From: Croceibacterium segetis
GTDB lineage: Bacteria; Pseudomonadota; Alphaproteobacteria; Sphingomonadales; Sphingomonadaceae
Direction of reading: 5' to 3'
Assembly: GCF_011320115.1 (NCBI RefSeq)
Contig: NZ_JAANOZ010000010.1
Location: 1 to 64,000 of the forward strand
DNA length: 64,000 bases
The notes under the pieces are model-generated. The model was given only the letters and a program-made list of their open reading frames with translations, did not search any database and was not told the DNA's origin. Positions within the stretch are counted from its first letter, which is position 1. Each line of letters begins with the position of its first letter. A program made the position numbers and the translations under genes. This document shows, piece by piece, positions 9,091 through 50,259 of this stretch.

Positions 9091-9100
9091 AGGGACCTAA

Positions 9101-11387: not shown

Positions 11388-11390
11388 TCG

Positions 11391-12980: not shown

Positions 12981-13002
12981 CTTGGCTCCCCCTTGATGGC
13001 GC

Positions 13003-13500: not shown

Positions 13501-13518
13501 GGAATCCCTCTCCTCATG

Positions 13519-13554
13519 TTGCCTCAATCGTAACACTCGTTATGATTGAGGCAA
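13519..13554. promoter_or_regulatory. 36-bp inverted repeat containing MarR-type operator (site 3)
   Basis: Left arm TTGCCTCAATCGTAAC, spacer ACTC, right arm the complement with a single mismatch (15 of 16 pairs). The core GTAAC-ACTC-GTTAT matches sites 5126 and 8258; the outer part extends the symmetry well beyond them. It occupies the gap between the divergent SnoaL/tannase and NmrA/PQQ-dehydrogenase operons, so one bound dimer, or two, could control both. Confidence 0.65.
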
Positions 13555-13582
13555 GCGGGCGAGTTCCGCACGGGAGAGATTC

Positions 13583-16695: not shown

Positions 16696-16747
16696 GACCA
16701 ACGGCCGCGCCCGTGTGTTGAAGGCGTGAGCGAGAGGAGATTTCCCA

Positions 16748-27538: not shown

Positions 27539-28093
27539 ATGTCCGACAATCCGTGGCCCGATGGCGTGCCGGAGATCATGCCGGCGCAGGACCGCGCCGA
27601 GATCGAGGAGCTCTATGCGCGCTATTGCTGGGGCATCGACCTCGCCGACGAGGAGCTGGCGGTGAACACGTTCGCCGAGGACGGCGAGTTCGACCACCTG
27701 TGGCAGGGCAAGGTCAAGGGCCACGCCGCGATCCGCGAGAACCTGCGCAAGCTGTGGTACGACAGACAACACTGGTGGTACGGACGCCAGCACCTGATGA
27801 ACCACTTCATCATGGACCCGCGCCCCGAAGGCGCCCGCGTGCGCTGCTTCTTCCAGATCCTGCAGTGGAACGCCGACTACCAGACCAACTTCGTTTTCGG
27901 CATCGGCACGCGGGACGACCGGCTGGTGAAGCGGGGCGGGCGGTGGAGGTTCCTGCGGCTGGTGGTCAACGCCTGGACCGCGGTCGACCAGGTGCCGTGG
28001 AAGGGCGAACGGACGCTGCCGATGAGACCGCCGTACAAGAGCCCGCCGGCGGACACGCGCCCGTTCGACGAGGCGACGGCAGATGAGTGGTAG
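27539..28093 (+). CDS. SnoaL-like protein
   Basis: A 184-residue cytoplasmic SnoaL-type protein: RAEIEELYARYCWGIDLADEELAVNTFAEDGEFD at the N terminus, then YGRQHLMNHFIMDPRPEGARV, a motif placing a His in the cavity. Unusually rich in Trp in the middle (DRQHWWYGRQ). GAGGGAGAG precedes the ATG. Divergent from cleavage oxygenase 2, the same pairing as SnoaL and family-X proteins with oxygenases 1 and 3. Possible partner or next enzyme. Confidence 0.82.
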   Translation: MSDNPWPDGVPEIMPAQDRAEIEELYARYCWGIDLADEELAVNTFAEDGEFDHLWQGKVKGHAAIRENLRKLWYDRQHWWYGRQHLMNHFIMDPRPEGARVRCFFQILQWNADYQTNFVFGIGTRDDRLVKRGGRWRFLRLVVNAWTAVDQVPWKGERTLPMRPPYKSPPADTRPFDEATADEW

Positions 28094-32536: not shown

Positions 32537-32645
32537 TTGGTCCCTGCGGAGCGTGCTTGCCACTCTCTCCCCCTTTGGCGTCATCAATACGGGGGGAGGA
32601 CTTAAGGAAGGTTTAAGTCGGCGTTTACCGTCTTGGGTGCCGGTT

Positions 32646-33497
32646 TCAGGCGGCGTGCGCGCGGATCGGGCGGTCGCCCGCCGGCAGCGGTTCGTAAAGT
32701 GCGAAGCGCTCCTCCGAGGGGCGGAAATAGGCGCCCTTCTCGAGCACCGTCTCGCCGCCGCCGAGCAGCAGCTTGCCGTCCGGCGCGAGCGCCTCGGCGA
32801 GGCGGGCAAAGGCTCGCGCCCGTACCGGGCCATCGAAGTAGAGGAGCACGTTGCGGCACAGGATCAGGTCGAACTGCCCGGGGTAGGGCGCCGGGTGCAG
32901 AACGTTGTGCACCTCGTAGCGGACCATCTGCCGCAAGTTGTCGCGCGCCCGCCATCCTTCGGGCGTCTCGGTGAAGAAGCCGAGCATCTGGCCGACGCCG
33001 AGCCCGCGCTGGATCTGGAAGTTGGAGTAGGTCGCCGTGCGGGCGAAATCGACCGCCGAGGCCGACACGTCGGTGCCGAGGATCTCGATCGACCAGCCGT
33101 CCCAGCGGGCCTGCTGCTCGAGGAAGGTCATCGCCACCGACAACGTCTCCTGCCCGGTCGAGCAGCCGACGCACCAGATCGCCAGCTTGCGCTCGGCGGC
33201 ACGCTTGGCGCTGAGATCGGCAAGCACGCCGCTGGCCAGGTAATCGAAGATCTGCCGGTCGCGGAAGAAGTAGGTCTCGTTGTTGAGCAGCGCTTCGACG
33301 ACGTCCTGCGCGAGCGAGGATTCGTCGGGCTGGGTGAGCAGCACGACGAGGTCCTGGTTGCTCGAGATGCCGCGGTCGCGGAACAGCCCGGCCAGCGCCG
33401 GGGCGATGCGCCAGCGGCGATCCTCGGTCAGCTTCTGGCCGGTGCGCGCTTCGAGCAGTCCCGCGATGATGCCGATCGCGATGTCATCAGGGTCCAT
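32646..33497 (-). CDS. cheR: CheR protein-glutamate methyltransferase
   Basis: A 283-residue CheR. N-terminal helical domain (ITEDRRWRIAPAL-like region, then NNETYFFRD, typical of CheR), SAM-binding motif IWCVGCSTGQETLSVAM and ILGTDVSASAVDFAR, then DLILCRNVLLYFD. It methylates receptor glutamates using S-adenosylmethionine. Its ATG overlaps the cheB stop (TGATG). Downstream is a 109-base gap before the GGDEF-EAL gene. Confidence 0.95.
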   Translation of the reverse strand: MDPDDIAIGIIAGLLEARTGQKLTEDRRWRIAPALAGLFRDRGISSNQDLVVLLTQPDESSLAQDVVEALLNNETYFFRDRQIFDYLASGVLADLSAKRAAERKLAIWCVGCSTGQETLSVAMTFLEQQARWDGWSIEILGTDVSASAVDFARTATYSNFQIQRGLGVGQMLGFFTETPEGWRARDNLRQMVRYEVHNVLHPAPYPGQFDLILCRNVLLYFDGPVRARAFARLAEALAPDGKLLLGGGETVLEKGAYFRPSEERFALYEPLPAGDRPIRAHAA

Positions 33498-34597
33498 CAG
33501 GCGCTCCGTCCGGTCGCGGCGGAAGCGATGCGGCCGGCGATGTCGAGCGGATGGAGGATCGCCGAGGCGAGCCCCGCTCGAGCGACCGAACCGGGCATGC
33601 CCCAGACCGCGGAAGTGGCTTCGTTCTGCACCAGGATGGTCCCGCCCGCTTCGACGAGTTCCTCGGCGCCGAGCGTGCCGTCGCGGCCCATGCCGGTCAG
33701 CACCACGCCGAGGCCGCCGCCGCCGTAGACTTCGGCGATCGAGGCGAACATCGGGTCGACCGAGGGCATGCAGCCGCTCGGGGCCGGGCGCCGCTCGAGC
33801 TTGACGGCCACGCCGCTCGGCTTGCGCACGACGGTGATGTGAGCGTCGCCGGGGGCAATCAGGATGCCGTCGGGGACCAGCGCCATGCCTTCGGCCGCCG
33901 CGAAAGTCTCGCGTCCGGTCAGTTCGCGCAACTGCTGCGCGAAGGCGGGAATGAACGAGACCGGCAAGTGCTGTGTGATCAGGATCGGGATGCCGAGCCC
34001 CATCGGCAGCGCGCCGAACAGCTGGCCGATCGAATGGATGCCGCCGGTCGATGCGCCGATGGCGACGATCCTGGCGCGTTCGCGCGAAGGACTGCGCAGC
34101 GTCGCCGTGTTCGCCGGGCCGTCGGCGCTGACCGCCTTGCGCAGCGGCCGCCGGCCGAGCGCGCGGATCTTGGCGAGCAGCTTGTCCTTGTAGTCGCGGT
34201 CGAAGCCGCCCGAAGCGGGCTTCTGAAGGGTGTCCGCCGCGCCGAGCGCGAGGGCTTCCACGGTATGTTCGGCGCCGTCGGCGGTGAGGCTCGACACGAC
34301 CATGATCTTGGCTTCGCGGGCCCGCTCGATCATCTGCGGCAAGGCGCCGAGACCGCCCATCCCGGGCATCTCGAGGTCGAGCAGAATCACGTCGACCCGC
34401 TCGCTGGCGAGCAGCGTCAGGGCATCCTCGGCGGTCGAGACGGCGGCGGCCAGCTCGAGGTCGGCCTCCTGGTCGACCAGGCGCGAGAAGGCGGCGCGGA
34501 CGATCAGCGAATCGTCGACCACCATGACCCGGATCTGGCGGCCGCGCTGAAGCGCCGGCCCCGCTCCGGGGGCGCCTAGCGGGGAAGAGTAGCCCAA
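33497..34597 (-). CDS. cheB: CheB protein-glutamate methylesterase
   Basis: A 366-residue CheB: receiver domain with VVDDS and phospho-acceptor Asp74 (VILLDLEMPGMGG), Lys in TLQKPASG, and a C-terminal methylesterase with Ser (IGASTGGIHS), His (TQHLPVSF) and Asp (GMGRDG). A TTG start at 34597 follows the strong AGGAGGAGAGC. It removes methyl groups set by CheR for adaptation. Lies nine bases after cheY in the operon. Confidence 0.95.
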   Translation of the reverse strand: MGYSSPLGAPGAGPALQRGRQIRVMVVDDSLIVRAAFSRLVDQEADLELAAAVSTAEDALTLLASERVDVILLDLEMPGMGGLGALPQMIERAREAKIMVVSSLTADGAEHTVEALALGAADTLQKPASGGFDRDYKDKLLAKIRALGRRPLRKAVSADGPANTATLRSPSRERARIVAIGASTGGIHSIGQLFGALPMGLGIPILITQHLPVSFIPAFAQQLRELTGRETFAAAEGMALVPDGILIAPGDAHITVVRKPSGVAVKLERRPAPSGCMPSVDPMFASIAEVYGGGGLGVVLTGMGRDGTLGAEELVEAGGTILVQNEATSAVWGMPGSVARAGLASAILHPLDIAGRIASAATGRSA

Positions 34598-34606
34598 GCT
34601 CTCCTC

Positions 34607-34972
34607 CTAAGCGGCGCCGACCAGCTGCAGTTTGATCTGCAGCGTATCGTGGTCGAACGGCTTCATGACATATTCGTCCGCCCCGGCGTCGATCGCCTCG
34701 CGGATGTGGGCGACGTCGTTCTCGGTGGTGCAGAACACGACCTTGGGCACGCGGCCGTCGGGCCGGTCGCGCAGCTTGGTCAGGAACTCGATCCCGCTCA
34801 TCACCGGCATGTTCCAGTCGAGCAGGATCACGTCGGGCATGGCCTCGTCGCATTTGGCGAGCGCTTCCTGGCCGTCCGCGGCTTCGTCGACTTCGAAGCC
34901 GAGCGTCTCGACGATGTGCCGCGACACCTTGCGGATCACCCGCGAGTCGTCGACGATCAGGCAGTTCTTCAT
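34607..34972 (-). CDS. cheY: CheY-like single-domain response regulator
   Basis: A 121-residue receiver domain: Asp8-Asp9 (CLIVDDSR), phospho-acceptor Asp52 (VILLDWNMPVMSG), Thr in VVFCTTEND and Lys in YVMKPF. ATG at 34972 preceded by AAGGGGCC; a longer form from 35023 would add an unconserved tail. It would carry the phosphate from CheA to the motor or to another output. Confidence 0.93.
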   Translation of the reverse strand: MKNCLIVDDSRVIRKVSRHIVETLGFEVDEAADGQEALAKCDEAMPDVILLDWNMPVMSGIEFLTKLRDRPDGRVPKVVFCTTENDVAHIREAIDAGADEYVMKPFDHDTLQIKLQLVGAA

Positions 34973-35027
34973 GGCGTTCGGCCCCTTGTTGGCGGTGTCC
35001 GATAGTCGCTTCACGGTAAACATTGGC

Positions 35028-35462
35028 TTACGCAGCCTTCCTTTTTGCAGGGCCTTCGATGAGTTTTGCGGGGTCGACGACCAGCGCCGGCCCGGCGCTC
35101 GTCTCGACCATGCCGATTGCCGCGCGGGCCCAGCCCGGCAGCAGATCGGCGCGAATTTCGCTCGGCTCGGTGTCGAACGGGACCACTTCCTCGACCGCGT
35201 CGACGACCAACGCGTAGAGAAACTCGTCGATCTCCACGACTACGGCGAGCGAACCGGGCACCTCAGCCTCGGGCAGCTCGAGGGTGCGGCGGCAATCGAC
35301 CACCGTCATCGCCCGGCTGCGCAGCGCGGCCAGCCCGGCGATGTGCTCCGGCGCGCGCGGCACCGGGGTTATGCCGTCGAGCTCGACGACCGAGCGGATG
35401 ATCTCGGAGGCGAAGGCGGCGCGTTCGCCGGCGATCGAAACGAGGAGAAGCGAACGGTCCAT
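35028..35462 (-). CDS. cheW: CheW-like coupling protein
   Basis: A 144-residue single CheW domain (LLVSIAGERAAFASEIIRSVVEL, GLAALRSRAMTVVDCRRTL, ALVVDAVEEVV). It links the receptor to CheA. Its ATG lies one base after the cheA stop. Shorter than typical Escherichia coli CheW but with the full two-barrel core. Confidence 0.88.
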   Translation of the reverse strand: MDRSLLLVSIAGERAAFASEIIRSVVELDGITPVPRAPEHIAGLAALRSRAMTVVDCRRTLELPEAEVPGSLAVVVEIDEFLYALVVDAVEEVVPFDTEPSEIRADLLPGWARAAIGMVETSAGPALVVDPAKLIEGPAKRKAA

Positions 35463-35463
35463 C

Positions 35464-37530
35464 TCAGGCCTCCGCATTCGCGAGGATCGCCGCGCCCGCC
35501 AGCAGCGCGTCTGCGTCGAACAATTCGACCGGGCGTCCACCGATCAGCGCCAGGCGTTGACCCGTCTCGCCTTTGGCGACGACGACTTCGGCCGGGTCGA
35601 ATTCGCACAAATCGACGATCTCGGCGTAGGCATAAGCCCGCTCATCCCCATCCTCGCCGGCGCGGAACAGGTTGATCTCCTCGCCTTCCGGCTTGAATCC
35701 GCCGAGGCCAATGAGCGGGACGATGCGGCCGTCGATAACGGCTTGCGCAGTGCCATCCTTGGCGGTGCGCAAGGCGGAAACCGGAAGCTTTTCGATCCGT
35801 CGCACCGCGTCCATCTCGACCGCGCGCTCGGCGCCGTCGAAGCCGCGGAACATCAGCGCCGGCACCAGCTCGCGCTCCTCGGTGCGTTCGTGGCGCAGCT
35901 CGCGGCGCAGCGAGCGGTCCTTGACCTCGCGGATCATTCCGGCCGAGCGGGCGACGCCGGAGACGTCGAGCATCGGCACCGGGCTGCCGTCATCGAGCTG
36001 GGTCGTGCCCACGTAGAAACCGCAGGCCATCAGCACCGGCGCGATCGGTTTGACCACCAGTTCTTCGTGGTTGTGGATCGCATCGACCGCGAGGCCGAAG
36101 AGGTCGCCGCCAACCAGCCGGATGAGGACATAGAGGCGCGCTTCGCGCGGGCAGGTCGATTCCACGCCGAGGATTTCATCGAGCCCGACGCAGGCGATGC
36201 GCTGTCCGCGCACGGTGATGAACTCGCGGCCGCCGATCTGGGCGCTGTCCATCTCCTCGCTCGAGGCGCGGACGATCTCTTCGACGTAGCTGCGCGGGAT
36301 CGCGAACGTGCGCTCGCCGACGCCGATGGTCAGCGACGGCACGATGCTGAGCGTCAGCGGAACGTTGAGCATCATTCGCGTGCCCGAGCCCGGGGTGCTG
36401 TCGATCATCAGCGAGCCGCCGATCTTCTCGATATTGGCGCGCACGACGTCCATGCCGACGCCGCGGCCGGAAACTGCGGTGACCTCCTTGGCGGTGCTCA
36501 GACCGGGCTCGCAGATCAGCGCGTTGCGCTCGCGCATGCTGAGCAACTTGGCCTCTTCGGCGGTCAGGATGCCGGCGGCCACGGCCTTCTCGACCAGCTT
36601 GTCGCCGTCGATGCCCTTGCCGTCGTCGACGATGCCGATGCGGATCTCGCTGCCGGTCTGGCGTGCCGAGATCTGCAGCATGCCGATCTCGCGCTTGCCG
36701 GCGGCCTGCCGCTCGGCAGGGGTCTCGATACCATGGTCGACGGCGTTGCGGATGAGGTGGACGAGCGGATCGCGGACGACCTCGATCATCTCGCGGTCGA
36801 TCTCGACGTCGCCGCTCTCGATCTCCACCATGACCTGCTTGCCGAGTTCGTGCGACAAGTCGCGCACCATCCGCGGAAAGCCGGAGAACAGCGTCTCGAT
36901 CCGCTGCATGCGGATGCGGGTGATTGCCTCACGCAAATCGGCGAGGATCGCCGAGAGTCGGTTGAACGGCGCGTCGAGGCCGGTTTCTCCCTCATGCTGC
37001 GCGATTCGTCGGGCGAGGTCGTTGCGCGCCACGGCCATGTCGGACACGCCGCTCATCACGCGGTCGAGCAGTTCGACCGGCAGGCGGATGGTCCGCGGGG
37101 TCGCCGACTGGCGGCGCTGGGCGCGGGTGGCGGCGGCGGCGGGAGCGGGCGCGCTTTCCTCGGCGTTGGCGTCGAGCGCGGCGATCAGCGGCGCGTCGTC
37201 GGCCTCTGGCTGTTCACGCCCGTCGCCGATCGCGGCGACGATTTCGGCGATACGGTCGATAATGGCGAGGACCGCGCTGACCAGCGCCTGATCGGGCTGG
37301 CGGCGTCCGGCGCGCACGTCGGCCAGGGCATCCTCGGCGGCATGGCTCAAAGCCTCGAGCCGCGGAAATTCGAAAAAGCCACAATTGCCTTTGACGGTAT
37401 GGACGAAGCGGAAGATCGCATCGAGGCGCGCGCGATCGGCGGGATCGGCCTCCCACGCGACGATCTCGCCCGACAGCGCTTCGAGCATGTCGCGCGATTC
37501 GGCGATGAATTCGGCGAGCAGGTCTTCCAT
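35464..37530 (-). CDS. cheA: Chemotaxis histidine kinase CheA
   Basis: A 688-residue CheA. HPt domain with phosphorylated His44 (RFVHTVKGNCGFF), a proline/alanine linker but no CheY-binding P2 domain, dimerisation helices (VELLDRVMSGVSDMAVARND), and the ATPase with HLIRNAVDHGIE, IVDDGKGID and VSGRGVGMDVV. The C terminus has a CheW-like domain (VPLTLSIVPSLTIGVGERTF...) and a second CheW-like stretch (RELVPALMFRGFDGAERAVE...), longer than the single P5 domain usual in this family. First gene of the operon, divergent from the FNT channel. Confidence 0.94.
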   Translation of the reverse strand: MEDLLAEFIAESRDMLEALSGEIVAWEADPADRARLDAIFRFVHTVKGNCGFFEFPRLEALSHAAEDALADVRAGRRQPDQALVSAVLAIIDRIAEIVAAIGDGREQPEADDAPLIAALDANAEESAPAPAAAATRAQRRQSATPRTIRLPVELLDRVMSGVSDMAVARNDLARRIAQHEGETGLDAPFNRLSAILADLREAITRIRMQRIETLFSGFPRMVRDLSHELGKQVMVEIESGDVEIDREMIEVVRDPLVHLIRNAVDHGIETPAERQAAGKREIGMLQISARQTGSEIRIGIVDDGKGIDGDKLVEKAVAAGILTAEEAKLLSMRERNALICEPGLSTAKEVTAVSGRGVGMDVVRANIEKIGGSLMIDSTPGSGTRMMLNVPLTLSIVPSLTIGVGERTFAIPRSYVEEIVRASSEEMDSAQIGGREFITVRGQRIACVGLDEILGVESTCPREARLYVLIRLVGGDLFGLAVDAIHNHEELVVKPIAPVLMACGFYVGTTQLDDGSPVPMLDVSGVARSAGMIREVKDRSLRRELRHERTEERELVPALMFRGFDGAERAVEMDAVRRIEKLPVSALRTAKDGTAQAVIDGRIVPLIGLGGFKPEGEEINLFRAGEDGDERAYAYAEIVDLCEFDPAEVVVAKGETGQRLALIGGRPVELFDADALLAGAAILANAEA

Positions 37531-40434: not shown

Positions 40435-41223
40435 ATGGATTTGGGCATCAGAGGCCGCAGGGCGATCGTCAATGGAGGCAGCGCGGGCATGGGCCGAAGT
40501 GCCGCGCTGGCTTTGGCACGCGAGGGGGTCGAGGTCTTCGTCTCCGCCCGGCGTGAGGATCGCCTGGTCAAGGCGTGCGCCGAGATCGCCGCCGAAACGG
40601 GGGCGAAGGTCACGCCCATATGCGCCGACCACAGCAGCGCCGAAGGCCGCGAACGGATCCTCGCCGCCTGTCCGGAGCCCGACATCCTCGTCGGCACCTG
40701 CGCGCCGCCGCCGATGACGCCCGACTACCGGGCGATCACCGACCGGCAGTGGCGCGAGGCGATCGACATTTCACTGCTCTCGCCGATTGAATTCATGCGC
40801 CGCGTGCTCGACGGAATGGTCGAGCGCAAGTGGGGCCGCGTCGTCAACATCGCCACCGTGGCGGCCAAGTATCCCGGCGAGATCCGTGCGCTTTCAGGCA
40901 GCACCCGGGCGGCGCTGGTCAACTACACGGTGGCCGTGTCGAAGATCGTCGCTCCGCACAACGTGGTCATCAACAATCTCCTGCCCGGAATGCACCATAC
41001 GGCGACCGTCGAAGAGCTGTTCACGGCCCGCGCCAAGGCCAAGGGCATCACCTACGACGACGAGGTCGCCGAATTCGTCAAGGATTGGCGCATCGCCAGC
41101 GGGCGGTTCGGCGATGCCGACGACGTCGGCGCCATCACCGCGATGTTCTGCAGCGAGTTCGCCAATTATATCACCGGCCAGAGCCTGGTTATCGACGGCG
41201 GGGCGACGACTTCGACGTTCTAG
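40435..41223 (+). CDS. SDR-family protein with altered active site
   Basis: A 262-residue SDR fold protein. The dinucleotide motif is NGGSAGMG near residue 12, but the structural NNAG is replaced by GTCAPPP, and the usual Tyr-x3-Lys is replaced by LSGSTRAAL, so the normal proton relay is missing. Such LSxxxR-type SDRs are known in proteobacteria and their chemistry is not settled. GGAGAGGGGCGCG precedes the ATG at 40435. Convergent with the SnoaL gene at 41220, overlapping it by four bases. The 174-base gap upstream of it shows no clear repeat and probably holds its promoter. Confidence 0.8.
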   Translation: MDLGIRGRRAIVNGGSAGMGRSAALALAREGVEVFVSARREDRLVKACAEIAAETGAKVTPICADHSSAEGRERILAACPEPDILVGTCAPPPMTPDYRAITDRQWREAIDISLLSPIEFMRRVLDGMVERKWGRVVNIATVAAKYPGEIRALSGSTRAALVNYTVAVSKIVAPHNVVINNLLPGMHHTATVEELFTARAKAKGITYDDEVAEFVKDWRIASGRFGDADDVGAITAMFCSEFANYITGQSLVIDGGATTSTF

Positions 41224-41735
41224 CCCGCATCGGGCGTGTAAGTCAGGCCGTCCAGCGGCGCCGGCTTGGGCCGGGCGACACGTTCTCCGGTCTGGCCGGC
41301 GATCCCGCGCAAGACCGGCCCGGACCAGTCGCGGATCAGCCGCTCGGCGAGGCGCCAGTGGCCCTCCTCGCGGCGGAACAGGTCTTCGTAATAGCCCATT
41401 ACGTTGAGCAGGTGCGGCCCGTCCCCCTGGCGCAAGGCGACCGCCACATAAGACCGGCTGCGCGCGCCTTCTGCGCAGGGCTCTATCAGCGTGTTGCTCA
41501 CATGGTGCTGGCGCCCGGCCGACGACGGCAGGCTGCGGAAGAATTCGGCGAAGTGACGGAGGGCCTTCGCGCCCTGCCATCGCTCCGGTTTTTCGAACGC
41601 ATCCCACACCAGCACGCCGTCGCGGCAGAAGCAGGCCACGAAGCCATCGACGTCACCAGTATCGAGCGCCCAGACATAGCGGGCGATGGTGTCGCGAATG
41701 GCCAAGCGATCATCGGCGGTGAGGGTTGGGGTCAC
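41220..41735 (-). CDS. SnoaL-like protein
   Basis: A 171-residue SnoaL_4-type protein with LTADDRLAIRDTIARYVWALDTGDVDGFVACFCRDG and AGRQHHVSNTLIE, closely parallel to the protein at 13003. GTG start at 41735, two bases after the stop of the DUF3237 gene, so it is co-transcribed with it and divergent from the GMC oxidase gene. A role in side-chain chemistry with these partners is inferred. Confidence 0.82.
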   Translation of the reverse strand: MTPTLTADDRLAIRDTIARYVWALDTGDVDGFVACFCRDGVLVWDAFEKPERWQGAKALRHFAEFFRSLPSSAGRQHHVSNTLIEPCAEGARSRSYVAVALRQGDGPHLLNVMGYYEDLFRREEGHWRLAERLIRDWSGPVLRGIAGQTGERVARPKPAPLDGLTYTPDAG

Positions 41736-41737
41736 GA

Positions 41738-42208
41738 TCAGGTCACCGCGTAATAGTCGAACGCGGTGGAAGCGCCCTGGCGCTCGGCCACGCCGACGAA
41801 GACGGTCCGATTGAGCCAGTCATGGGGGCCGGGCGGCACCTCGAAGGTGGGCGTGATGCGACAGTAGGTCGCGGCGGGATCGACGCTCTCGCCAGCTTCG
41901 ATCCTGGCAACTACCTGGGGATCGGACCAGGCGATGCCGCGGTTGTGGATGTAGATCGGCGTGCCGTCGTCGGCTTCGAGCATATAATGAGCTTCGAATT
42001 CGATCAGCCCGCTGGCCCAGATGCGCGGCCAGTCGCCGCCCGAGAAGGGGACCACCCGGCCGGACAAGCGCGGGCCGCTGATCTCACCGCCGACGACGGC
42101 GACGAATCCGCGGGTGAAGGCCTTGGCAGCGGGCTCGAACCGCAGCCGCGGCCCCTCGCCGAAATCGAGGCGCGCGCGAAACGCCAGTTCGAGCGACGGT
42201 GTCTGCAA
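41738..42208 (-). CDS. DUF3237 family protein (1)
   Basis: A 156-residue single-domain protein. The family signature is visible: GGEISGPRLSGRVVPFSGGDWPRI, FEAHYMLEADDGTPIYIHNRGI and PPGPHDWLNRTVFVGV. A TTG start at 42208 is chosen because AAGGAGGATCGGC directly precedes it; an ATG further upstream would have an unconserved tail. DUF3237 is a small beta-rich fold of unknown function often found near aromatic genes. Four copies are in this window. Confidence 0.82.
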   Translation of the reverse strand: MQTPSLELAFRARLDFGEGPRLRFEPAAKAFTRGFVAVVGGEISGPRLSGRVVPFSGGDWPRIWASGLIEFEAHYMLEADDGTPIYIHNRGIAWSDPQVVARIEAGESVDPAATYCRITPTFEVPPGPHDWLNRTVFVGVAERQGASTAFDYYAVT

Positions 42209-42281: not shown

Positions 42282-43853
42282 GTGGAAGAGTTCGACTATA
42301 TCATTGTCGGCGCCGGCAGCGCCGGATGCGTTCTCGCCAATCGTCTCAGCGCTGATCCGGCCATGCGGGTGGCGCTGGTCGAGGCGGGCGGCGAATGCCG
42401 CCATCCGCTGATCGACATGCCGCTGACCTGGATGCAGGCAGCCGCCTCGCCTCGGTTCGGCTGGGGCTACGAAAGCGAACCCGATCCCAACCTCGACGGG
42501 CGAACCCAGCCGATCCCGCGCGGCAAGGTCCTGGGCGGCTCGTCCTCGATCAACGGCACGATGTATATCCGTGGGGCGGCCGCCGATTACGATGCGTGGC
42601 GCGACGCCGGCCATGAGGGCTGGGGCTACGAAGACGTCCTGCCGCTGTTCAAGCGTTCCGAAGCGAACTGGCGCGGGGCGAGCGAGGTTCATGGCGGCAG
42701 CGGCGAAATGGACGTTTCGCCGATGCGGCCCGACCCGATGCTGTATCCGGCGTTTCTCGAAACGGCGCACGCGCTCGGGTACCCCGACTGTCAGGACTTC
42801 AACGTCCCCCAGCCCGAAGGTTTCGGCATGCCCGACTGCACGATCCGCGCGGGCCGCCGGGCGAGCAGCGTGCGGGCGTTCATCGACCCGGTCGCCGGAA
42901 GGGCGAACCTCTCGGTCGTGGCCAACGCCACTGTTCGCCGCGTCGTTATCGAGGATCGCCGCGCGACCGGCGTCGAGCTGGCGGACGGGCGCAGGCTGGG
43001 TTGCCGAGGCGAAACGATCCTGTGCGCCGGCGCGCTCAACAGCCCGCACCTGCTGATGCTGTCGGGGATTGGTCCCGCCGCATCGCTCAAGTCTGCCGGG
43101 ATCGAACCGCTGGTCGACCTTTCGGGGGTGGGACAGAACCTGCAGGACCACCCGATCGCGATGAGCATCTGGAAGTCGGCAGTGCCGATCGGCTTCAACC
43201 GCGACATTCGCCTCGACCGGCTGGCGCTCAACTTCGTGCGCTGGCAACTGACCGGGCGCGGCCCGCTGAGCCAAAGCCCGATGTCGATCCAGGGCTTCGT
43301 GCGCTCGGGCGACGATCAGGAGCGGCCCGACCTGCAGTTCCAGATCGTCCATAGCGGCTACGACGCGCGGGTCTGGTTTCCCGGCTGGCGCAAGGCCCCT
43401 ACGCCGATGTTTTCCTGCGGCGCGATCCTGCTCAATCCCGAGAGCCGCGGCGACGTTACGCTGGTTTCGGCCGATCCGCTGGCTTTGCCGCGAGTGCAGT
43501 TCAACTTCATGAGCGCCGAGGGCGACCGCGAGCGTCTTCGCCGCGGCTTTCGCTTCATCCGCCGGTTCTTCGCCACCTCCCCGGCGAGCGGTCTGGTCGA
43601 GACAGAGCTGGCGCCCGGCCTGCAGGCGCAGAGCGAGGACGAGATCGACGCCTGGCTGCGGGCGTCCTTGATCAGCGCAGGGCACCCGACCGGCACATGC
43701 GCGATGGGCAGGGTGGTCGACGACGCGTTGCGGGTGGTCGGGGTCGAACGGCTGCGGGTGGCAGACGCTTCGGTCATGCCCAGCGTCATTCGCGGCAACA
43801 CCCATGCGCCGACGGTGATGATCGCCGAAAAGGCGGCGAAGCTAGTTCGCTGA
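42282..43853 (+). CDS. GMC-family FAD oxidoreductase (choline/alcohol dehydrogenase type)
   Basis: A 523-residue GMC oxidoreductase. The FAD motif IIVGAGSAGCVLANRLS starts the protein; GKVLGGSSSINGTMYIRG and GETILCAGALNSPHLLMLSGIGP are the two family signatures; the C terminus has His in SAGHPTGTCAMG and in GNTHAPTVMIAEKAA. It should oxidise a primary alcohol to an aldehyde with FAD. GTG start at 42282, with GACGGGCAAG before it. Divergent from the DUF3237/SnoaL pair. Confidence 0.9.
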   Translation: MEEFDYIIVGAGSAGCVLANRLSADPAMRVALVEAGGECRHPLIDMPLTWMQAAASPRFGWGYESEPDPNLDGRTQPIPRGKVLGGSSSINGTMYIRGAAADYDAWRDAGHEGWGYEDVLPLFKRSEANWRGASEVHGGSGEMDVSPMRPDPMLYPAFLETAHALGYPDCQDFNVPQPEGFGMPDCTIRAGRRASSVRAFIDPVAGRANLSVVANATVRRVVIEDRRATGVELADGRRLGCRGETILCAGALNSPHLLMLSGIGPAASLKSAGIEPLVDLSGVGQNLQDHPIAMSIWKSAVPIGFNRDIRLDRLALNFVRWQLTGRGPLSQSPMSIQGFVRSGDDQERPDLQFQIVHSGYDARVWFPGWRKAPTPMFSCGAILLNPESRGDVTLVSADPLALPRVQFNFMSAEGDRERLRRGFRFIRRFFATSPASGLVETELAPGLQAQSEDEIDAWLRASLISAGHPTGTCAMGRVVDDALRVVGVERLRVADASVMPSVIRGNTHAPTVMIAEKAAKLVR

Positions 43854-45143
43854 GCGTCGGCCGGGAGCCAGGGCGATGACCGGCAGCGCCAGTATCAACA
43901 GCGAGGCGAGCAACCCGATCGCCAGCGGAAACCCCCCGCGGCCGGCGACCAGCACCCCGGTCAGCCATGGCCCGATCACCCCGCCCGCCGTGCCGAACAT
44001 GCTGATCAATGCGATGGCGCCGACCGGCACGCTGTCGCCGCCGAGCCGCACGCTGGCGGGCACTGCCCAGAACACGCCTTGCGCGGCGCCGATGCCCAAT
44101 CCCGCCACGCAAAGCAGCGCAAGAACCGGCCAGCCCGGCGGGAGCAAGGCCGCGGCCAGCATGGCGAGACCCGCGGCGGCGCAGGGCAGGCCGGTGTGCA
44201 GGAGCCGCTCGCGTTTGCGGTCGGAGCGCCGCCCGTTGGCGACCAGCCCCACGGCCAATCCCAACAGAGGCAAGGCGCTGAGTGTGCCGATGGCGAGCTC
44301 GCTGCCGCCGAGCGCCAATTGGCGCACGAGCTGGGGCAACCAGAACACCAGCGCGTAGGAACCGGTCATGACTAGCAGCCAGGCCACCGAGCAGCGCCAC
44401 AGCCAGGGATCGCGCAGGATCCGCAGGTTCGGTGCCGCGCTGGTGGTGGCGGGTGCCGCGCTGTTGGCAAACTCTCGCTCGATCCAGTGCGCTTCCTCGC
44501 GCGAGAGCCAGCGCGCCTTGTCCGGCCGGTCGACCATGTACAGGGCCGCGGCCACCGCGATGATCGCATTGGGCACGGCGAGCAGCAGGAACATGTAGCG
44601 CCACGGCGCCACTCCCAAGGGATTGGCGATGCCGAGCAGCCAGCCGCACAGCGGCCCGCCGAGCACCATCGACAAGGGCACTGCGACCAGCGCCCCAGCG
44701 AGCGCCCGGGCGCGCATCGAGGGCGGCGCCCATTGCGAGATCAGCCAGGTCATTCCGGGTGCGAAGCCCGCTTCGGCCATGCCGAGCAGGAAGCGCGCGG
44801 CGTAGAACTCGTTGGCGCTGGCGATCCGCGCCATCAGCAACCCGGAGGCCGCCCACAGGAGCATGGACACGAAGATCCATGACTTGATCCCCCAGGCCCT
44901 CAGCAGCCGCACGTGCGGATACTGGAACAGCAGGTAGGCGATGAAGAACGCGCTCACCCCCTGGCCGAACTGGCTCGGCGAAAGACCGAGATCGGCCGAC
45001 ATTGCGCTGCCGGCGTAGCTGATGTTGACCCGGTCGATCGAGTTGACGAAGGTAATCAGGGCGATCGGCACGATCAGCCAGACGATCAGCTTGCGCTCGA
45101 CCCGCCGCCTGAGCCCCTCGTCGCCCTCGTCCGGTCCTGCCAA
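43842..45143 (-). CDS. MFS transporter, anion/cation symporter (ACS) type
   Basis: A 433-residue, 12-helix MFS permease. Helix 1-2 region ALITFVNSIDRVNISYAGSAM is the ACS/phthalate-permease signature, and MAEAGFAPGMTWLISQWAP lies in helix 4-5. TTG start at 45143 with GAGGGGGACGAGCA before it. It should import an organic anion, perhaps an aromatic acid. Convergent overlap of 12 bases with the GMC oxidase, divergent from cleavage oxygenase 3 across about 100 bases. Confidence 0.82.
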   Translation of the reverse strand: MAGPDEGDEGLRRRVERKLIVWLIVPIALITFVNSIDRVNISYAGSAMSADLGLSPSQFGQGVSAFFIAYLLFQYPHVRLLRAWGIKSWIFVSMLLWAASGLLMARIASANEFYAARFLLGMAEAGFAPGMTWLISQWAPPSMRARALAGALVAVPLSMVLGGPLCGWLLGIANPLGVAPWRYMFLLLAVPNAIIAVAAALYMVDRPDKARWLSREEAHWIEREFANSAAPATTSAAPNLRILRDPWLWRCSVAWLLVMTGSYALVFWLPQLVRQLALGGSELAIGTLSALPLLGLAVGLVANGRRSDRKRERLLHTGLPCAAAGLAMLAAALLPPGWPVLALLCVAGLGIGAAQGVFWAVPASVRLGGDSVPVGAIALISMFGTAGGVIGPWLTGVLVAGRGGFPLAIGLLASLLILALPVIALAPGRRSAN

Positions 45144-45251: not shown

Positions 45252-46730
45252 ATGGTCGCCCGCTTTTCCAGGCCCCAGCCGCAAGGCTTCCTCGCGCCGC
45301 AACGCTTCGACGCCGACTTGCTCGATTGCGAGGTCGAGGGGACGATTCCCGCGGACATGGACGGCGACTTCGTCCGCGTCGGCGGCGAGTGGTTCTACCC
45401 GCCGAAGTTCCCCGACGACGCGCCGCTCCATTCCGACGGCTACATCAGCCGCTTCCGCTTCAAGGACGGTCGCGTTGCGTACAAAGGCCGGTTCGTCCGC
45501 ACGCCCCGGTTCGAGGCCAACCTCGCCGCCGGGCGCCAGCAGTTCGGCTATTACCGCAACCCATTCACCTGCGAGGCCGCAGTCCGCGGGTTGAACGGCA
45601 CGGTCTCCAACACCGCTCCGCTGGTCCATGCGGGAAAGCTGTTCACGCTAAAGGAGGACGCGCTGCCGATCGAGATCGATCCCGATACGCTGGACACGAT
45701 CGGACAGTGGGATTTCGGCGGCGACTACAAGAGCGAGACGTTCACCGCGCATCCCAAGGTCGACCCCACTTCAGGAGAGATGATCGCCTTCGGTTACGAG
45801 GCGACGGGCCTCGCGAGCGACGACTTGTTCGTCTATTTCATCGACGGGCACGGCCAGGTCGCCCGCGAGGTTCGCCTGAAGGTGCCCTATGTCTCGATGA
45901 TCCACGATTTCGCGGTCACCCAGGACCACCTCATCTTCCCCTTCGCCTGCTACACGACGAGCATGGAGCGGCTGGAGGCGGGCAAGGTCCACTGGGCGTG
46001 GAACCGGCAATTGCCGAGCATGATCGGGGTGATGCGCCGCGACGGGGACGGGTCCGACATCCGCTGGTTCAAGGGGCCGGAACGCTGCATGATGCACGTG
46101 TTCAACGCCTACAGCGAAGGCGACAAGGTGGTCCTCCACGCGCCGTTCTATGAATCGAACTTCTTCCCCTTCTTCCCCAACGTCGACGGCTCGCCGTGGG
46201 ATCCGACCAAGGCCGTCGCCTACGTCCGAAGGCTGACCTTCGACCTCGGCAAACCCGGTGAAAGCTGGGACGAAGAAATTCTCTTTCCCAACCCGATCGG
46301 CGATCTCGGCAAGGTCGACTCGCGCTACACTACTCTGCCGCAGCGCTATGCCTTCACCAATTTCGCCGACGCGGCGCGACCCTTCGACGAGGCGCGAACC
46401 GGAATGCCGCGGGCGCGGATCACCAATACTTACGGGCGGTTCGACCTGCACACAGGCGCGATCGACCGCCTGTTCGTTGGTGACACCCACACGCTGCAGG
46501 AATGCAGTTTCGTGCCTCGGCGCGGCAGCAGCGAAGAAGGCGACGGCTATTTGATCGGCACCGTCTCCAATCTCGTCGAGATGCGCACCGAGTTGGTCAT
46601 CGCCGATGCTCAGCGCCTCGGTGAAGGCGAACTGGCGCGGTTGCACCTGCCGTTTCGCGCCGCGGCGCAAGTCCACGGTTGCTGGTACGACGCGGAGCAA
46701 CTCACACCACTGGCGGAAGGTCCTGCATGA
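45252..46730 (+). CDS. Carotenoid-cleavage-oxygenase family protein, lignostilbene-dioxygenase-like (3)
   Basis: A 492-residue CCO-family iron oxygenase with His167 (TAHPKVD), His218 (SMIHDF), His282 (MHVFNAY) and His475 (VHGCWY). Tyr101 (YYRNPF) and Lys134 (TLKEDA) match the phenol-binding pair of lignostilbene dioxygenases, as in copy 1. ATG at 45252; ribosome site is weak. It overlaps the following DUF3237 gene by ATGA and heads a four-gene overlapping operon with two DUF3237 proteins and a family-X protein, so these must act with it or on its products. Confidence 0.88.
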   Translation: MVARFSRPQPQGFLAPQRFDADLLDCEVEGTIPADMDGDFVRVGGEWFYPPKFPDDAPLHSDGYISRFRFKDGRVAYKGRFVRTPRFEANLAAGRQQFGYYRNPFTCEAAVRGLNGTVSNTAPLVHAGKLFTLKEDALPIEIDPDTLDTIGQWDFGGDYKSETFTAHPKVDPTSGEMIAFGYEATGLASDDLFVYFIDGHGQVAREVRLKVPYVSMIHDFAVTQDHLIFPFACYTTSMERLEAGKVHWAWNRQLPSMIGVMRRDGDGSDIRWFKGPERCMMHVFNAYSEGDKVVLHAPFYESNFFPFFPNVDGSPWDPTKAVAYVRRLTFDLGKPGESWDEEILFPNPIGDLGKVDSRYTTLPQRYAFTNFADAARPFDEARTGMPRARITNTYGRFDLHTGAIDRLFVGDTHTLQECSFVPRRGSSEEGDGYLIGTVSNLVEMRTELVIADAQRLGEGELARLHLPFRAAAQVHGCWYDAEQLTPLAEGPA

Positions 46731-47350
46731 TCGATCGCCGGGAAGTCCTCGCGGGCATGACTGCGGCCGGCGCGCTGGCGGCAACCGCCACGCCATCGAG
46801 CGCGAAAAAGGGAAACGGAATGAGCGAGGCATCCCCGATCAAGGAAATGGCCGGCGTGCGCTATCGCTGGGCGTTTTCGGTCAGCGTCTTCTTCAAGGAA
46901 CGCGTGGCCATAGAATCCCCCTATCGCCGCACCTTCGTGCCGGCGGTCGGGGGCGACATCTGGGGCCCGCGCCTGCAGGGCAGGGTGGTCCCCTATGGCG
47001 GAGCCGACTTCGGCGGCGGCGGGGGGCCGCTCGACGCGCATTACATGTTCGAGGCGGCCGACGGGCATTACATCTACATCAACAACCGCGCCTACATGCG
47101 CCGCGTGGGGTGGGATCCGGCGACCGGCGTCGAGCGGCACGTAGCGCAGCCCGCGCCCGGCGATCGCTTCAGCCAGGACTTCATCGCCCCGCCGGATTCG
47201 GCGGTCCCGCTGCGCATGCGCACCTCGCCCTTCTTCGACGCGCCGAGCAACAGCCCGCATGACTGGATGAACCGCACGCTGTTCTTCGGCCACGGGCTGC
47301 GCCGAACCGATCCCGACCGGACGATCTTCACCTATTACGAGGTGCTCTGA
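46727..47350 (+). CDS. DUF3237 family protein (2), exported
   Basis: A 207-residue DUF3237 protein with a Tat-like signal (DRREVLAGMTAAGALAATATPSSA: two arginines then a hydrophobic core). The family motifs VGGDIWGPRLQGRVVPYGGADF, YMFEAADGHYIYINNRAYM and HDWMNRTLFFG follow. Coupled by ATGA to cleavage oxygenase 3 and by TGATG to the next DUF3237. An exported copy next to a non-exported copy in one operon is unusual. Confidence 0.78.
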   Translation: MIDRREVLAGMTAAGALAATATPSSAKKGNGMSEASPIKEMAGVRYRWAFSVSVFFKERVAIESPYRRTFVPAVGGDIWGPRLQGRVVPYGGADFGGGGGPLDAHYMFEAADGHYIYINNRAYMRRVGWDPATGVERHVAQPAPGDRFSQDFIAPPDSAVPLRMRTSPFFDAPSNSPHDWMNRTLFFGHGLRRTDPDRTIFTYYEVL

Positions 47351-47802
47351 TGGCCGAGATGGCAATTCCCGGCGACCGTTCGCCCGACCTCGTCGCACCG
47401 ATCGGCTTCGAACCCGCGTTCACCCTGACGCTCGAATACGGCCCCCGCCACCTCGAACGAACCCCGCACGGCGGGCGCCTTTTCCGCAAGATCACGGGCG
47501 GTGCGGTCTCCGGCAAGATCGAAGCCACGGTCTACCCGCAAGGCGCGGGCGAGTATTCGCTGGTCCGCAGTGACGGCGTGACCGACGTCAACGAGCATGT
47601 CCTGGTCCGCGACGAGGGCGGCGAATGGATCTACATCCGCAACATCGGCTATTCCCGGCAGGACGGCTATTACCGCGTAACCAGTTGGGTGGACGCCGAC
47701 GTGCGGGGCAAGCACGACTGGGTGCTCGGACTGCTGTTCCTCGGGATGGCCGAACCGGGCGGCAAGGATCGCGTCACGATTCGCTACTTCGAGGTCCTAT
47801 GA
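47350..47802 (+). CDS. DUF3237 family protein (3), cytoplasmic
   Basis: A 150-residue DUF3237 protein without signal peptide. The family signature is degenerate: TGGAVSGKIEATVYPQGAG replaces GPRL-G-V-P-GGDW, and VNEHVLVRDEGGEWIYIRNIGYSR and KHDWVLGLLFLGM remain. Coupled to both neighbours by overlaps (TGATG, ATGA). The divergence suggests a division of labour with the exported copy. Confidence 0.75.
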   Translation: MAEMAIPGDRSPDLVAPIGFEPAFTLTLEYGPRHLERTPHGGRLFRKITGGAVSGKIEATVYPQGAGEYSLVRSDGVTDVNEHVLVRDEGGEWIYIRNIGYSRQDGYYRVTSWVDADVRGKHDWVLGLLFLGMAEPGGKDRVTIRYFEVL

Positions 47803-48743
47803 ACGGAAGGAGGACGAGCTCGAGTTTCGCTGCGGCCGCCAAGATCACCGTGGCCGCCGCCGCGTTCCTGCTCACCGGCGCATCGGGAGACAGCCGCGTG
47901 AAGCCCTGCGACAAGGCATGCCTCGAGCAAATCGGCGACAGCTACCGCGCCGCCTATTTGGCGCACGATCCAGCCAGGGCGCCCTTCGCGGCAAAGGTTC
48001 GCTTCAGCGAAAACAACATCGAGATGCCTTTCCCCGACGGAACCTGGGACACCGTGACCGAGGAAGTCGGCCCGACGCTGACGCTGTCAGATCCTCAGAC
48101 CGGTGACATTGGCATCTACACCGCGATCAAGCAGCGCGAAGTCCCCGGCTTCCTGGCGGTCCGCCTAAGAGTCGAGGGCCGCAAGATCACCGAGGTCGAA
48201 CAGATCATTTCGACCAAGCGCAATCTCAGCAGCCCGCCGACGCCGATCGGGGACATCGAAGGCTATGCCCTACCCCCGATCGTCGACCAGGTAGTGCCGA
48301 AGGAAAAGCGCGCGTCGCGCGAAGCGCTGATGGGTCACGCCGACGGCTATTTCGATACGCTGCAGCACAACAACGGCGAAATCCGCGGTACCTGCTTTCA
48401 CCCCGACGCCACCCGCCGCGAGAACGGCATGCTGTTCAGCGACATCAAGGGCGGCTTCGAATCCGGTCGCTACGCCTTCAACGACCGCGTGCGGCGCGAG
48501 ATCGTGCTTGTCGACCAAGAGCGCCAGGTGGTGATGGCGCGCGGGTTCATCGATCACAAAGGCGTGCTCGACGAATACAACCTCACCGACGGGACCAAGG
48601 CCAAGTCGGTTTTCCAGGAACCGCAGAGCTGGGGCTTGCTCGAAAGCTTCAAGGTCACCGACGGCTGCATCGCCGCCGTGGTCGCGACATTTTACCAGGC
48701 GCCGTACTACACGGTGTCGCCGTGGACGCCGCGGGGGCGCTGA
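47799..48743 (+). CDS. Exported protein of uncharacterised family X (copy 3)
   Basis: A 314-residue family-X protein. The N terminus (KITVAAAAFLLTGASG) looks like an export signal. Shares with 7354-8214 the blocks MGHADGYFDTLQHNNGEIRGTCFHPDATRRENG, VLVDQERQVVMARGFIDHKGVLDEY and PYYTVSPW. ATGA overlap with the previous DUF3237 gene. As copy 1 (1427) also sits with a lignostilbene-type oxygenase, the family seems bound to that chemistry. Confidence 0.72.
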   Translation: MNGRRTSSSFAAAAKITVAAAAFLLTGASGDSRVKPCDKACLEQIGDSYRAAYLAHDPARAPFAAKVRFSENNIEMPFPDGTWDTVTEEVGPTLTLSDPQTGDIGIYTAIKQREVPGFLAVRLRVEGRKITEVEQIISTKRNLSSPPTPIGDIEGYALPPIVDQVVPKEKRASREALMGHADGYFDTLQHNNGEIRGTCFHPDATRRENGMLFSDIKGGFESGRYAFNDRVRREIVLVDQERQVVMARGFIDHKGVLDEYNLTDGTKAKSVFQEPQSWGLLESFKVTDGCIAAVVATFYQAPYYTVSPWTPRGR

Positions 48744-48746
48744 TCG

Positions 48747-49229
48747 TCACACCACCACGAAGTAGTGGATCCGATTGGCTCCCGGCAGTTTCTCGGCCAC
48801 CCCCACGAAGACATGCCGGGACAGCCATTCGTGCGGCCCGGCGGGGGCGTCGAACTTCGGGGTCACGCGCATGTAGTAGTCGGAAAAGTCGGCCGCTTCG
48901 TTGCGGCGCATGGCAGCGCCGACTTTCTCGCCGCGCGCCCAGCGATAGCCGCGGTTTTCCAAGTATATGATTGCGCCGTCGCTGGCTTCGAGCAAGTAGC
49001 GCGCGTCGAAATCGATCACGCCGTCGGGGCGCTGGAGCGGGAAGTCGCCGCCCGACATGGGGATCACCCTTCCGTTGAGCCGGGGCCCTTCCACCGTGCC
49101 GCTCGCGGCGTAGATCGCCGCCCGGGTTTCGCCGCGCACGGAGGGCTCCACCCAATAAGGCTTGGACAGGTCGATCGAGATCGTAAAGGCGTGTTCGAAG
49201 CGCGGGGCGAAAGGGTGCGGATCGGCCAT
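48747..49229 (-). CDS. DUF3237 family protein (4)
   Basis: A 160-residue DUF3237 protein: GTVEGPRLNGRVIPMSGGDFPL, FDARYLLEASDGAIIYLENRGYRW and GPHEWLSRHVFVGVAE. No signal peptide. Convergent with the operon of cleavage oxygenase 3, only three bases apart. Upstream on its strand TTGACT, 17 bases, TCTATG is a possible promoter. Confidence 0.8.
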   Translation of the reverse strand: MADPHPFAPRFEHAFTISIDLSKPYWVEPSVRGETRAAIYAASGTVEGPRLNGRVIPMSGGDFPLQRPDGVIDFDARYLLEASDGAIIYLENRGYRWARGEKVGAAMRRNEAADFSDYYMRVTPKFDAPAGPHEWLSRHVFVGVAEKLPGANRIHYFVVV

Positions 49230-49350: not shown

Positions 49351-50259
49351 TCAGAGTGTGAGCGGTGGCACGTTGAGCACATGGAGTGCGCGGCAAACCC
49401 CTTCGTAGATTTCAAGATCGCACCCCGGGTCCGCCATGAGGATAAGCAGGAGAGGGCGGGCGACCGGCGCTATGGGCACAAGGTCGCCTGCGCGAACAAG
49501 GTCTCCCACATGCATGTTCATCAAGACGGCTACGCCGGCTCCTGATCGAACCTCATCAACGAGGGAATCCAGCGAGCCTGTGACTTCCCGGCGATTGGCG
49601 GGATCCAGGCCCGCCCTCGACATCGTATCCTCGAGCCACTGGCTAAGCTGCGGCGCGCGGGATGGAATGAGGTAGACGAGGTCCGCAAGCTTGCGATTGC
49701 CCTCGGCAAGATCGCGCGCGATGGAAGGCGCAGCAAACAAGGCGCCATGCTGCTCTGCGACAACGTGACTGATGTAGTCCGTGCGCACCGGAATGCGGAC
49801 CGAACCGAACAGGGCAAAGGCCTCTCGTTTCGCGGGGTCCGAATCCAACGCAGCCAGGGGATCTCCGCTCATCACGAAAGCAGTGCGTCGCGGTAAACCC
49901 GCGGCAAAAAGCTCGGGCATAATCGAACTGATCTTGGCGAGTTGGAGTTCGCGCACATAGATGCGGGGCAATGCGCGGCCATCATCCGTCTCGCGCCGGA
50001 TGAGCCGCCGCTGTAGCTCCAGCGTGGCGCGGGCGTCCTGCAAGAGCTCTCTGCCCAGCGCCGAAAGTTCCGCCCGTCCTCCCCTCGTGCGGACAACGAG
50101 TTCACCGCCAACGGACCTTTCAAGTGCCTTGATCTGCTTGCTGATCGACGGTTGCGAAATGTCGAGAGCGTCGGCTGCGCGGCGCATGCTGCCGCACTCG
50201 GCAACGGCCAAGAAGAGTTCGAGTTGGCGGGTCGTCGGCACCGGCGAATGATATCCCAA
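49351..50259 (-). CDS. LysR-type transcriptional regulator
   Basis: A 302-residue LTTR. The N-terminal winged helix is clear: TTRQLELFLAVAECGSMRRAADALDISQPSISKQIKALERSVGGEL (shown in parts: AADALDISQPSISKQI). The C-terminal effector domain contains GAGVAVLMNMHVG. Start is uncertain: TTG at 50259 as given, or a GTG 18 bases later. It is divergent from a TonB receptor gene with a matching LTTR box between them, so it likely controls that gene in response to an aromatic compound. Confidence 0.88.
   Translation of the reverse strand: MGYHSPVPTTRQLELFLAVAECGSMRRAADALDISQPSISKQIKALERSVGGELVVRTRGGRAELSALGRELLQDARATLELQRRLIRRETDDGRALPRIYVRELQLAKISSIMPELFAAGLPRRTAFVMSGDPLAALDSDPAKREAFALFGSVRIPVRTDYISHVVAEQHGALFAAPSIARDLAEGNRKLADLVYLIPSRAPQLSQWLEDTMSRAGLDPANRREVTGSLDSLVDEVRSGAGVAVLMNMHVGDLVRAGDLVPIAPVARPLLLILMADPGCDLEIYEGVCRALHVLNVPPLTL

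Follow-up and report, generated by a model that had tools for sequence, protein, structure and literature searches.

Within a 64,000-nucleotide stretch of Croceibacterium segetis DNA (contig NZ_JAANOZ010000010.1, positions 1 to 64,000; hereafter the window), four consecutive plus-strand genes, here named OX, D1, D2 and FX, are proposed with moderate confidence to act as one catabolic unit, which would first make and then cut the stilbene-type C=C bond of an aryl dimer. OX (45252-46730, 492 amino acids) encodes a lignostilbene-type dioxygenase, D1 (46727-47350, 207 amino acids) a DUF3237 protein with an N-terminus resembling a twin-arginine translocation (Tat) signal (MIDRREVLAG...), D2 (47350-47802, 150 amino acids) a divergent DUF3237 protein without a signal, and FX (47799-48743, 314 amino acids) a protein with a signal-like N-terminus and two tandem nuclear transport factor 2 (NTF2)-like domains, provisionally termed 'family-X'. 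All four reading frames are intact and, as described in an earlier reading of this DNA from its letters alone (the sequence-only reading), each gene overlaps the next, OX and D1 by 4 bases, D1 and D2 by 1 base and D2 and FX by 4 bases. That reading took such coupling as a sign of one process. However, overlaps of 1 or 4 bases occur in 11 of the 31 same-strand neighbour pairs among the gene calls of the window, three of which come from the module. Since short overlaps are this common, gene coupling is weak evidence and overlap taken by itself was rejected as an argument for a shared process; the real evidence for the module is its conservation in other genomes, and it is this recurrence that speaks for a common process.

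A scan of genome contigs for FX revealed ten loci, three of which carry close relatives (70-74% identity), namely those of Sphingobium nicotianae, Alteraurantiacibacter buctensis and Aurantiacibacter suaedae. The gene order is not unique to the source genome: a colinear, same-strand OX-D1-D2-FX arrangement is present in S. nicotianae (76, 77, 66 and 73% identity to the respective window proteins), in A. buctensis (69, 62, 51 and 74%) and in G191, a genome of the same genus as the window (68, 63, 56 and 71%; G, L and C numbers are our labels for genomes, loci and contigs). In G117, the order is OX-D1-D2-OX with FX 3.6 kb away, and in Sphingobium sp. SYK-6 (G328), its near twin G329 and G360, the genes OX-MFS-FX-hydrolase, an opposite-strand MarR gene and D1-D2 all lie within about 6 kb. 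FX adjoins OX in A. suaedae, with no D1-D2 in the 16.8 kb examined; G136 has OX-FX without D1-D2, and family-wide searches found no module-type D1 or D2 in this genome; in G076, FX and OX are 2.8 kb apart, likewise without D1-D2. Taken together, OX and FX are neighbours in 11 of 11 genomes, eight of which also have D1-D2; this set was reached via OX, FX or D2 matches and is thus not random. The overlap of D1 and D2 is exactly 1 base in all eight, and OX shares 4 bases with D1 in the window, in G191 and in A. buctensis, and 4 (more likely) or 7 in S. nicotianae.

Across the family (298 genomes sampled), the four genomes with a module-type D1 (E at most 2.9e-60) are also the four with a module-type D2 (E at most 9.1e-32). 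OX with at least 56% identity is found in six, and all six encode FX with at least 51% identity starting no more than 5 kb away, both cut-offs having been chosen after the matches were seen. Within the genus of S. nicotianae, four of 94 genomes have module-type D2 (G298, G328, G329 and G360); in a class-wide sample of 289 genomes, only the window's own genome has it, the next match having an E value of 4.9e-15. In four FastTree gene trees, A. buctensis is joined by G191 (and by G136 in trees that include it) in every case, and the position of SYK-6 varies; because congruence is only partial, strict co-inheritance of all four genes is not claimed.

As D1-D2 were not found in G136, G076 and A. 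suaedae, OX and FX can evidently occur without them, and the pair might be an accessory cassette, serving a single stereoisomer or class of substrate, which was acquired or lost at a site between OX and FX, the functional core. This explanation, which we regard as doubtful, would agree with the state of A. suaedae and G076, with the 91% identity that both OX and FX show between G191, which has D1-D2, and G136, which lacks them, and with the report that PhcF and PhcG, two DUF3237 decarboxylases of SYK-6, are an enantiospecific pair (PMC11323797; this and the other papers cited are drawn on in excerpt). Against it stand the OX/D1 and D1/D2 overlaps, which recur where the pair is present, and the samples searched, in which neither D1 nor D2 turned up in the absence of OX and FX.

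The assignment of OX as a stilbene-type oxygenase, made in the sequence-only reading, holds: it scores 373.2 bits against the Pfam RPE65 family (cut-off 27), and its best PDB sequence matches are lignostilbene-type dioxygenases. It falls below the cut-offs of the NCBIfam lignostilbene-alpha,beta-dioxygenase equivalogs (498.5 against 800 and 412.3 against 650 bits). The four iron-ligating histidines (167, 218, 284 and 476 in LSD4 numbering) are present in OX and its aligned counterparts, and OX possesses equivalents of Tyr-101 and Lys-134, the residues holding the 4-hydroxyaryl group. Phe-59 is replaced by Leu and Ser-283 by Met in OX and five aligned counterparts; LSD8 has Phe and Ile at these positions. 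As the iron ligands and the Tyr-101 and Lys-134 equivalents are retained, OX likely cleaves a C=C bond next to a 4-hydroxyaryl ring, and its pocket for the other half of the substrate seems to differ. The SYK-6 counterpart of OX (55% identity) is LSD8/LsdE, encoded by SLG_27300, an assignment based on gene position and on a process of elimination over the eight LSDs published. The LsdE-type enzyme of A. suaedae (L040, 8867-10459) starts with the Tat-like motif MKRRDFMG (profile score 15.1, cut-off 16.7) and is possibly an exported lignostilbene-type dioxygenase.

Identification of D1 and D2 as DUF3237 proteins is likewise borne out by Pfam (PF11578, cut-off 24), with 75.2 bits for D1 and 52.1 bits for D2. 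The source genome has seven DUF3237 matches, among them two further ones in the window: D3 (48747-49229, minus strand, 120.7 bits), which is convergent with FX, as the sequence-only reading had noted, and separated from it by 3 bases, and D4 (41738-42208, minus strand, 121.7 bits), for which an earlier start at 42280 is possible. The statement that three of the four module proteins have no known function was too strong, as DUF3237 has experimentally studied members. PhcF and PhcG decarboxylate DCA-CC to a stilbene, which is then cut by a lignostilbene dioxygenase (PMC12997858, PMC11323797). PinX of Novosphingobium rhizosphaerae LY contains a DUF3237 domain and shows 42% identity to PhcG and 38% to PhcF of SYK-6; a pinX deletion mutant accumulates lariciresinoate, and PinX was assigned a decarboxylation with opening of the furan ring (PMC12607616). 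PhcF, PhcG and PinX as well as PhcC and PhcD were located in SYK-6 via DUF3237 and BLAST matches and by comparing gene order with published locus tags. In a tree of 58 DUF3237 sequences, for which paired support values are given, D3 lies inside the PhcG clade (99/99; 68% identity to PhcG of SYK-6). The D1 copies form their own clade (100/99), which groups with PhcF, beside and not inside the PhcF clade, and the D2 copies a separate clade (100/98), which groups with neither PhcF nor PhcG and was encountered only in company with D1. D4 stands apart in a small clade with one relative and is 42% identical to both PhcF and PhcG. The profile match of D2 spans only positions 3-87 of 149, and D2 was considered as a false DUF3237 member; its AlphaFold model, with a predicted local distance difference test score (pLDDT) of 91.5, is a DUF3237 barrel whose best Foldseek matches are DUF3237 structures, which counters this view.

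Two further observations concern the DUF3237 family. Another clade (L102, 4967-5443; L106, 5517-5978; L111, 10358-10819) is found near LSD4-type dioxygenases of SYK-6, S. nicotianae and A. buctensis (5 kb away in the latter) and deviates at several columns conserved in PhcF, PhcG and PinX. A. suaedae (G300) encodes a full-length DUF3237 match of 114 bits on contig C1 (1156141-1156596), about 1.2 kb past the end of L040 if C1 is the contig of L040.

FX had no Pfam or NCBIfam match at an E value of 0.1, SnoaL/NTF2 profiles included, and a PDB sequence search returned two chance-level matches, neither of them relevant. Its AlphaFold model (pLDDT 87.5; 16 sequences) consists of two NTF2-like domains, and in a Foldseek search (best E 7.9e-5) all 50 matches listed are single NTF2-type domains, natural or designed, of the NTF2/SnoaL folds. 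Since the two halves of FX align with each other (hhalign E 1.8e-8, from a family alignment), the protein is an internal duplication. Among the matches listed, 27 of 118 FX-like matches have a listed lignostilbene-type dioxygenase within 10 kb, with about 2.85 expected at random; both values are approximate, being based on the best candidates of each genome (up to five dioxygenases and seven FX proteins) and on rough genome sizes. NTF2-type proteins have a published role in stilbene formation, as LdpA and PcfL belong to the NTF2 superfamily and form stilbenes with loss of formaldehyde (PMC12997858, PMC11323797). In PDB sequence searches, three single-domain SnoaL proteins of the window (41220-41735, 27539-28093 and 13003-13500) match ketosteroid-isomerase, scytalone-dehydratase-like, MonB-type and unnamed NTF2 entries, none of which bears the label of a formaldehyde lyase. 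The window also encodes two FX paralogues on the minus strand, one at 7354-8214 without signal or CxxxC motif, 2.3 kb from a PinU/LSD5-like dioxygenase, and one at 1427-2398 with a signal-like start and CxxxC. Five consecutive FX-family matches are present in G034 (contig C122, 11498-19298).

D1 and FX share their export state. The MIDRR start of D1, followed by a hydrophobic stretch, is present in five genomes (that of the window, S. nicotianae, G191, G117 and A. buctensis) and absent from SYK-6, G329 and G360; FX has a signal-like start in those five and in none of these three, a match in eight of eight. A Tat profile score above the cut-off was obtained for D1 of G191 only (NCBIfam, 20.7 against 16.7 bits); the Tat models are marginal, below cut-off, for the window protein and match none of the D1 proteins of the remaining three signal-bearing genomes at E 0.1. 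No signal is visible by eye on D2 or OX in the module-bearing genomes. A CxxxC pair and a signal-like stretch ahead of it go together in the 23 distinct FX-family sequences: 17 of 17 sequences with the stretch have the pair, and none of the six others does, one of which (L116) shows a hydrophobic stretch ahead of the start that is likely for it.

From these observations on gene order, on counterparts elsewhere, on folds, on dioxygenase residues and on matched export signals, we infer reactions for D1, D2 and FX, a substrate and an uptake step as follows. A carboxylated dimer of the lignin, lignan or diferulate type would be supplied by a natural substrate or by a neighbouring oxidase; the GMC oxidoreductase encoded at 42282-43853 (plus strand; 44-45% identity to PhcC and PhcD of SYK-6) could provide the carboxylate. 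D1, with D2 as its partner, would decarboxylate the dimer via a quinone-methide-like state to give a stilbene-type C=C bond, and FX, sharing its compartment with D1, would carry out or prepare a lyase- or dehydratase-type step on this precursor. OX, as an LsdE-type enzyme, would then cut the C=C bond to yield two aldehydes. As D1 and FX, unlike OX, seem to be exported, the alkene would form outside the inner membrane in the source organism and then be taken up, perhaps by the MFS transporter whose gene (43842-45143, minus strand) is indeed divergent from OX, as the sequence-only reading had it. In SYK-6-type loci, all steps look cytoplasmic. Diferulates as substrate are our own idea, which rests on two points: DCA-CC is presumably the 8-5' diferulate, and FX and OX of G076 flank a carboxylesterase gene with a twin-arginine start (L113, 8608-10248). 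A gene at the same place in G117 (L115, 10209-11837) also has a twin-arginine start and resembles it by look only; such carboxylesterase-type genes hint at an ester substrate.

The sequence-only reading had suggested a downstream place for the companions of OX, where they would bind or convert the aldehydes released by cleavage. This function was probably proposed the wrong way round, as the characterised relatives PhcF, PhcG and PinX are upstream decarboxylases that act before the dioxygenase and create the C=C bond. A close association with an aldehyde-releasing type of dioxygenase and the ability of exported proteins, for instance periplasmic scavengers, to intercept toxic products would fit aldehyde handling by D1, D2 and FX. 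It is nevertheless unlikely, because no export signal is visible on the OX of the window, which would place its products in the cytoplasm and apart from D1 and FX; moreover, profile and fold searches yielded no aldehyde-handling family for D1, D2 or FX, and nothing linking them to aldehydes was found there or in the literature searched. That the four genes are neighbours merely by shared regulation within an aromatic catabolic island, without a common pathway, is highly improbable: the window is rich in lignin-dimer-type genes and in short overlaps, but the module recurs across genera at 51-77% identity, with a constant D1/D2 overlap and matched D1/FX export states.

Several points weigh against the proposal that the four proteins make and then cut a stilbene-type bond. 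The grouping of D1 with PhcF is only modestly supported (95/79). An alignment of 13 PhcF/PhcG/PinX-type sequences has 25 invariant columns (PhcG numbering), chosen by invariance and not by a known catalytic role in PhcF or PhcG; of these, the D1 copies keep 17, have lost Gly-37, Arg-71 and Tyr-122 and are variable at five. The D2 copies keep 10, including Gly-37, Arg-71 and Tyr-122, and the equivalents of Tyr-82, Glu-85, Asp-88 and Pro-127 are lost in every one of them; by clade and by conserved residues, D2 falls outside the PhcF/PhcG/PinX-type decarboxylases. Because invariant columns are lost, the chemistry of D1 and D2 may differ from that of PhcF, PhcG and PinX. No activity is on record for LSD8/LsdE, D1, D2 or FX, and according to the excerpt of PMC8191317, LSD8 was insoluble in E. 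coli and showed no cleavage in lysates. D1-D2 are missing beside OX and FX in three of the 11 genomes, and the D2/FX overlap of the window is replaced by gaps of 41 bases in S. nicotianae, 25 in G191 and 137 in A. buctensis. The count of FX neighbours covers the matches listed, and other Sphingobium dioxygenases lie outside it. Export signals were judged by eye and by hydrophobicity, and the matched states of D1 and FX may go back to a single evolutionary change, since SYK-6, G329 and G360 are close kin. Finally, a cytoplasmic OX combined with exported D1 and FX would require a transport step, which we infer from this arrangement only.

The residue losses of the two DUF3237 proteins are partly complementary: Gly-37, Arg-71 and Tyr-122 are lost in D1 and kept in D2, and Tyr-82, Asp-88 and Pro-127 are lost in D2 and kept in D1. 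One may speculate that D1 and D2 form an obligate heteromeric, split DUF3237 enzyme, in which the signal-less D2 would be carried across the membrane with Tat-bearing D1, so that the alkene would be built in the periplasm together with the cysteine-pair FX and cut inside by OX. This elaboration, which we think rather improbable, is hinted at by these losses, the constant 1-base overlap, the joint occurrence of D1 and D2 in the same four of 298 genomes, the matched export of D1 and FX and the distribution of CxxxC; the absence of Gly-37 and Arg-71 from D4 as well weakens the first of these hints. Neither a split DUF3237 enzyme nor a periplasmic route to a lignostilbene-type substrate was found in the literature searched.

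Beyond the module, D3 is adjoined by a LysR-type regulator (49351-50259, minus strand). A pinoresinol-type gene set at 3600-18220 comprises a dioxygenase, the FX paralogue at 7354-8214, PinW/PinV-like genes, an NmrA-family protein and a pyrroloquinoline quinone-dependent dehydrogenase. The dioxygenase (3600-5090, minus strand) is PinU/LSD5-like, with 68% identity to LSD5/LsdF of SYK-6, and PinU is given as the counterpart of LSD5/LsdF in a review (PMC12997858). The PinW/PinV-like flavoprotein and cytochrome c genes overlap by 4 bases and their products are 71 and 67% identical to those of SYK-6 genes; the NmrA-family protein is 47.5% identical to PinZ of SYK-6, which was placed by gene order. 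Between 21910 and 28093, an aldehyde dehydrogenase, an alcohol dehydrogenase, a third gene product, a dioxygenase and a SnoaL protein match the phc neighbourhood of SYK-6 (65, 72, 45, 41 and 67% identity), and the phc-like set looks split in the window, the PhcG relative D3 being about 20 kb away from this region. Chemotaxis- and two-component-like genes, named by reading their translations, interrupt the aromatic catabolic island at 29689-37530.

With this module, the LSD8/LsdE dioxygenase, an orphan in the lignin-degrading model strain SYK-6, gains recurring partners and thereby a testable pathway, and the search is directed upstream, to carboxylated dimers rather than aldehydes. Two unstudied protein types join the candidates for lignin-dimer conversion, the paired DUF3237 proteins and a duplicated NTF2-like protein that is frequently a neighbour of stilbene-type dioxygenases. 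In the excerpt of the 2026 review, no counterpart of lsdE was found in two other model strains, and further lignin-associated pathways are said to be still to be characterised (PMC12997858). The suggestion that the module is undescribed agrees with the literature searched, mostly open papers with the original PhcF/PhcG and LsdD reports lying outside, in which no description of it was found. Only SLG_27300 of the six SYK-6 module locus tags turns up there, and nothing was found there that joins a lignostilbene dioxygenase with nuclear transport factor 2.

A DUF3237 decarboxylase acting before a lignostilbene-type dioxygenase has already been published for two pathways; what differs here is the D1-D2 pair together with FX and an LsdE-type enzyme. 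Beyond sequence families, the D2 model matches structures of PhnH of Penicillium herquei (Foldseek E about 1e-6) and, weakly, pterocarpan-synthase dirigent barrels of plants (E about 1e-2); PhnH catalyses a hydroalkoxylation, and quinone methides are the compounds that dirigent proteins handle; in both cases only the barrel is shared. FX resembles the formaldehyde lyases LdpA and PcfL in its NTF2-type fold, the comparison being one of folds; these enzymes act just before lignostilbene-type dioxygenases, and unlike them FX is an internal duplication. The pin pathway of N. rhizosphaerae LY (PinZ, PinY, PinX, PinWV and PinU) likewise combines a DUF3237 decarboxylase, PinX, and a dioxygenase, PinU, in one route; however, the PinU-like enzyme of the window is the one encoded at 3600-5090 and not OX, and the four-gene module lacks PinZ and PinWV. 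The phc pathway of SYK-6 (PhcC/PhcD, PhcF/PhcG and a dioxygenase) shares a GMC oxidase, DUF3237 decarboxylases and a lignostilbene-type dioxygenase with the window, in which D3 belongs to the PhcG clade, whereas D1-D2 form a pair of their own, linked to an LsdE-type dioxygenase and FX, and D1 and FX look exported. The LsdE/LSD8 locus of SYK-6 (SLG_27300) has counterparts of OX, FX, D1 and D2 within about 6 kb; there, however, MFS, hydrolase and MarR genes are interspersed, and D1 and FX carry no signals.

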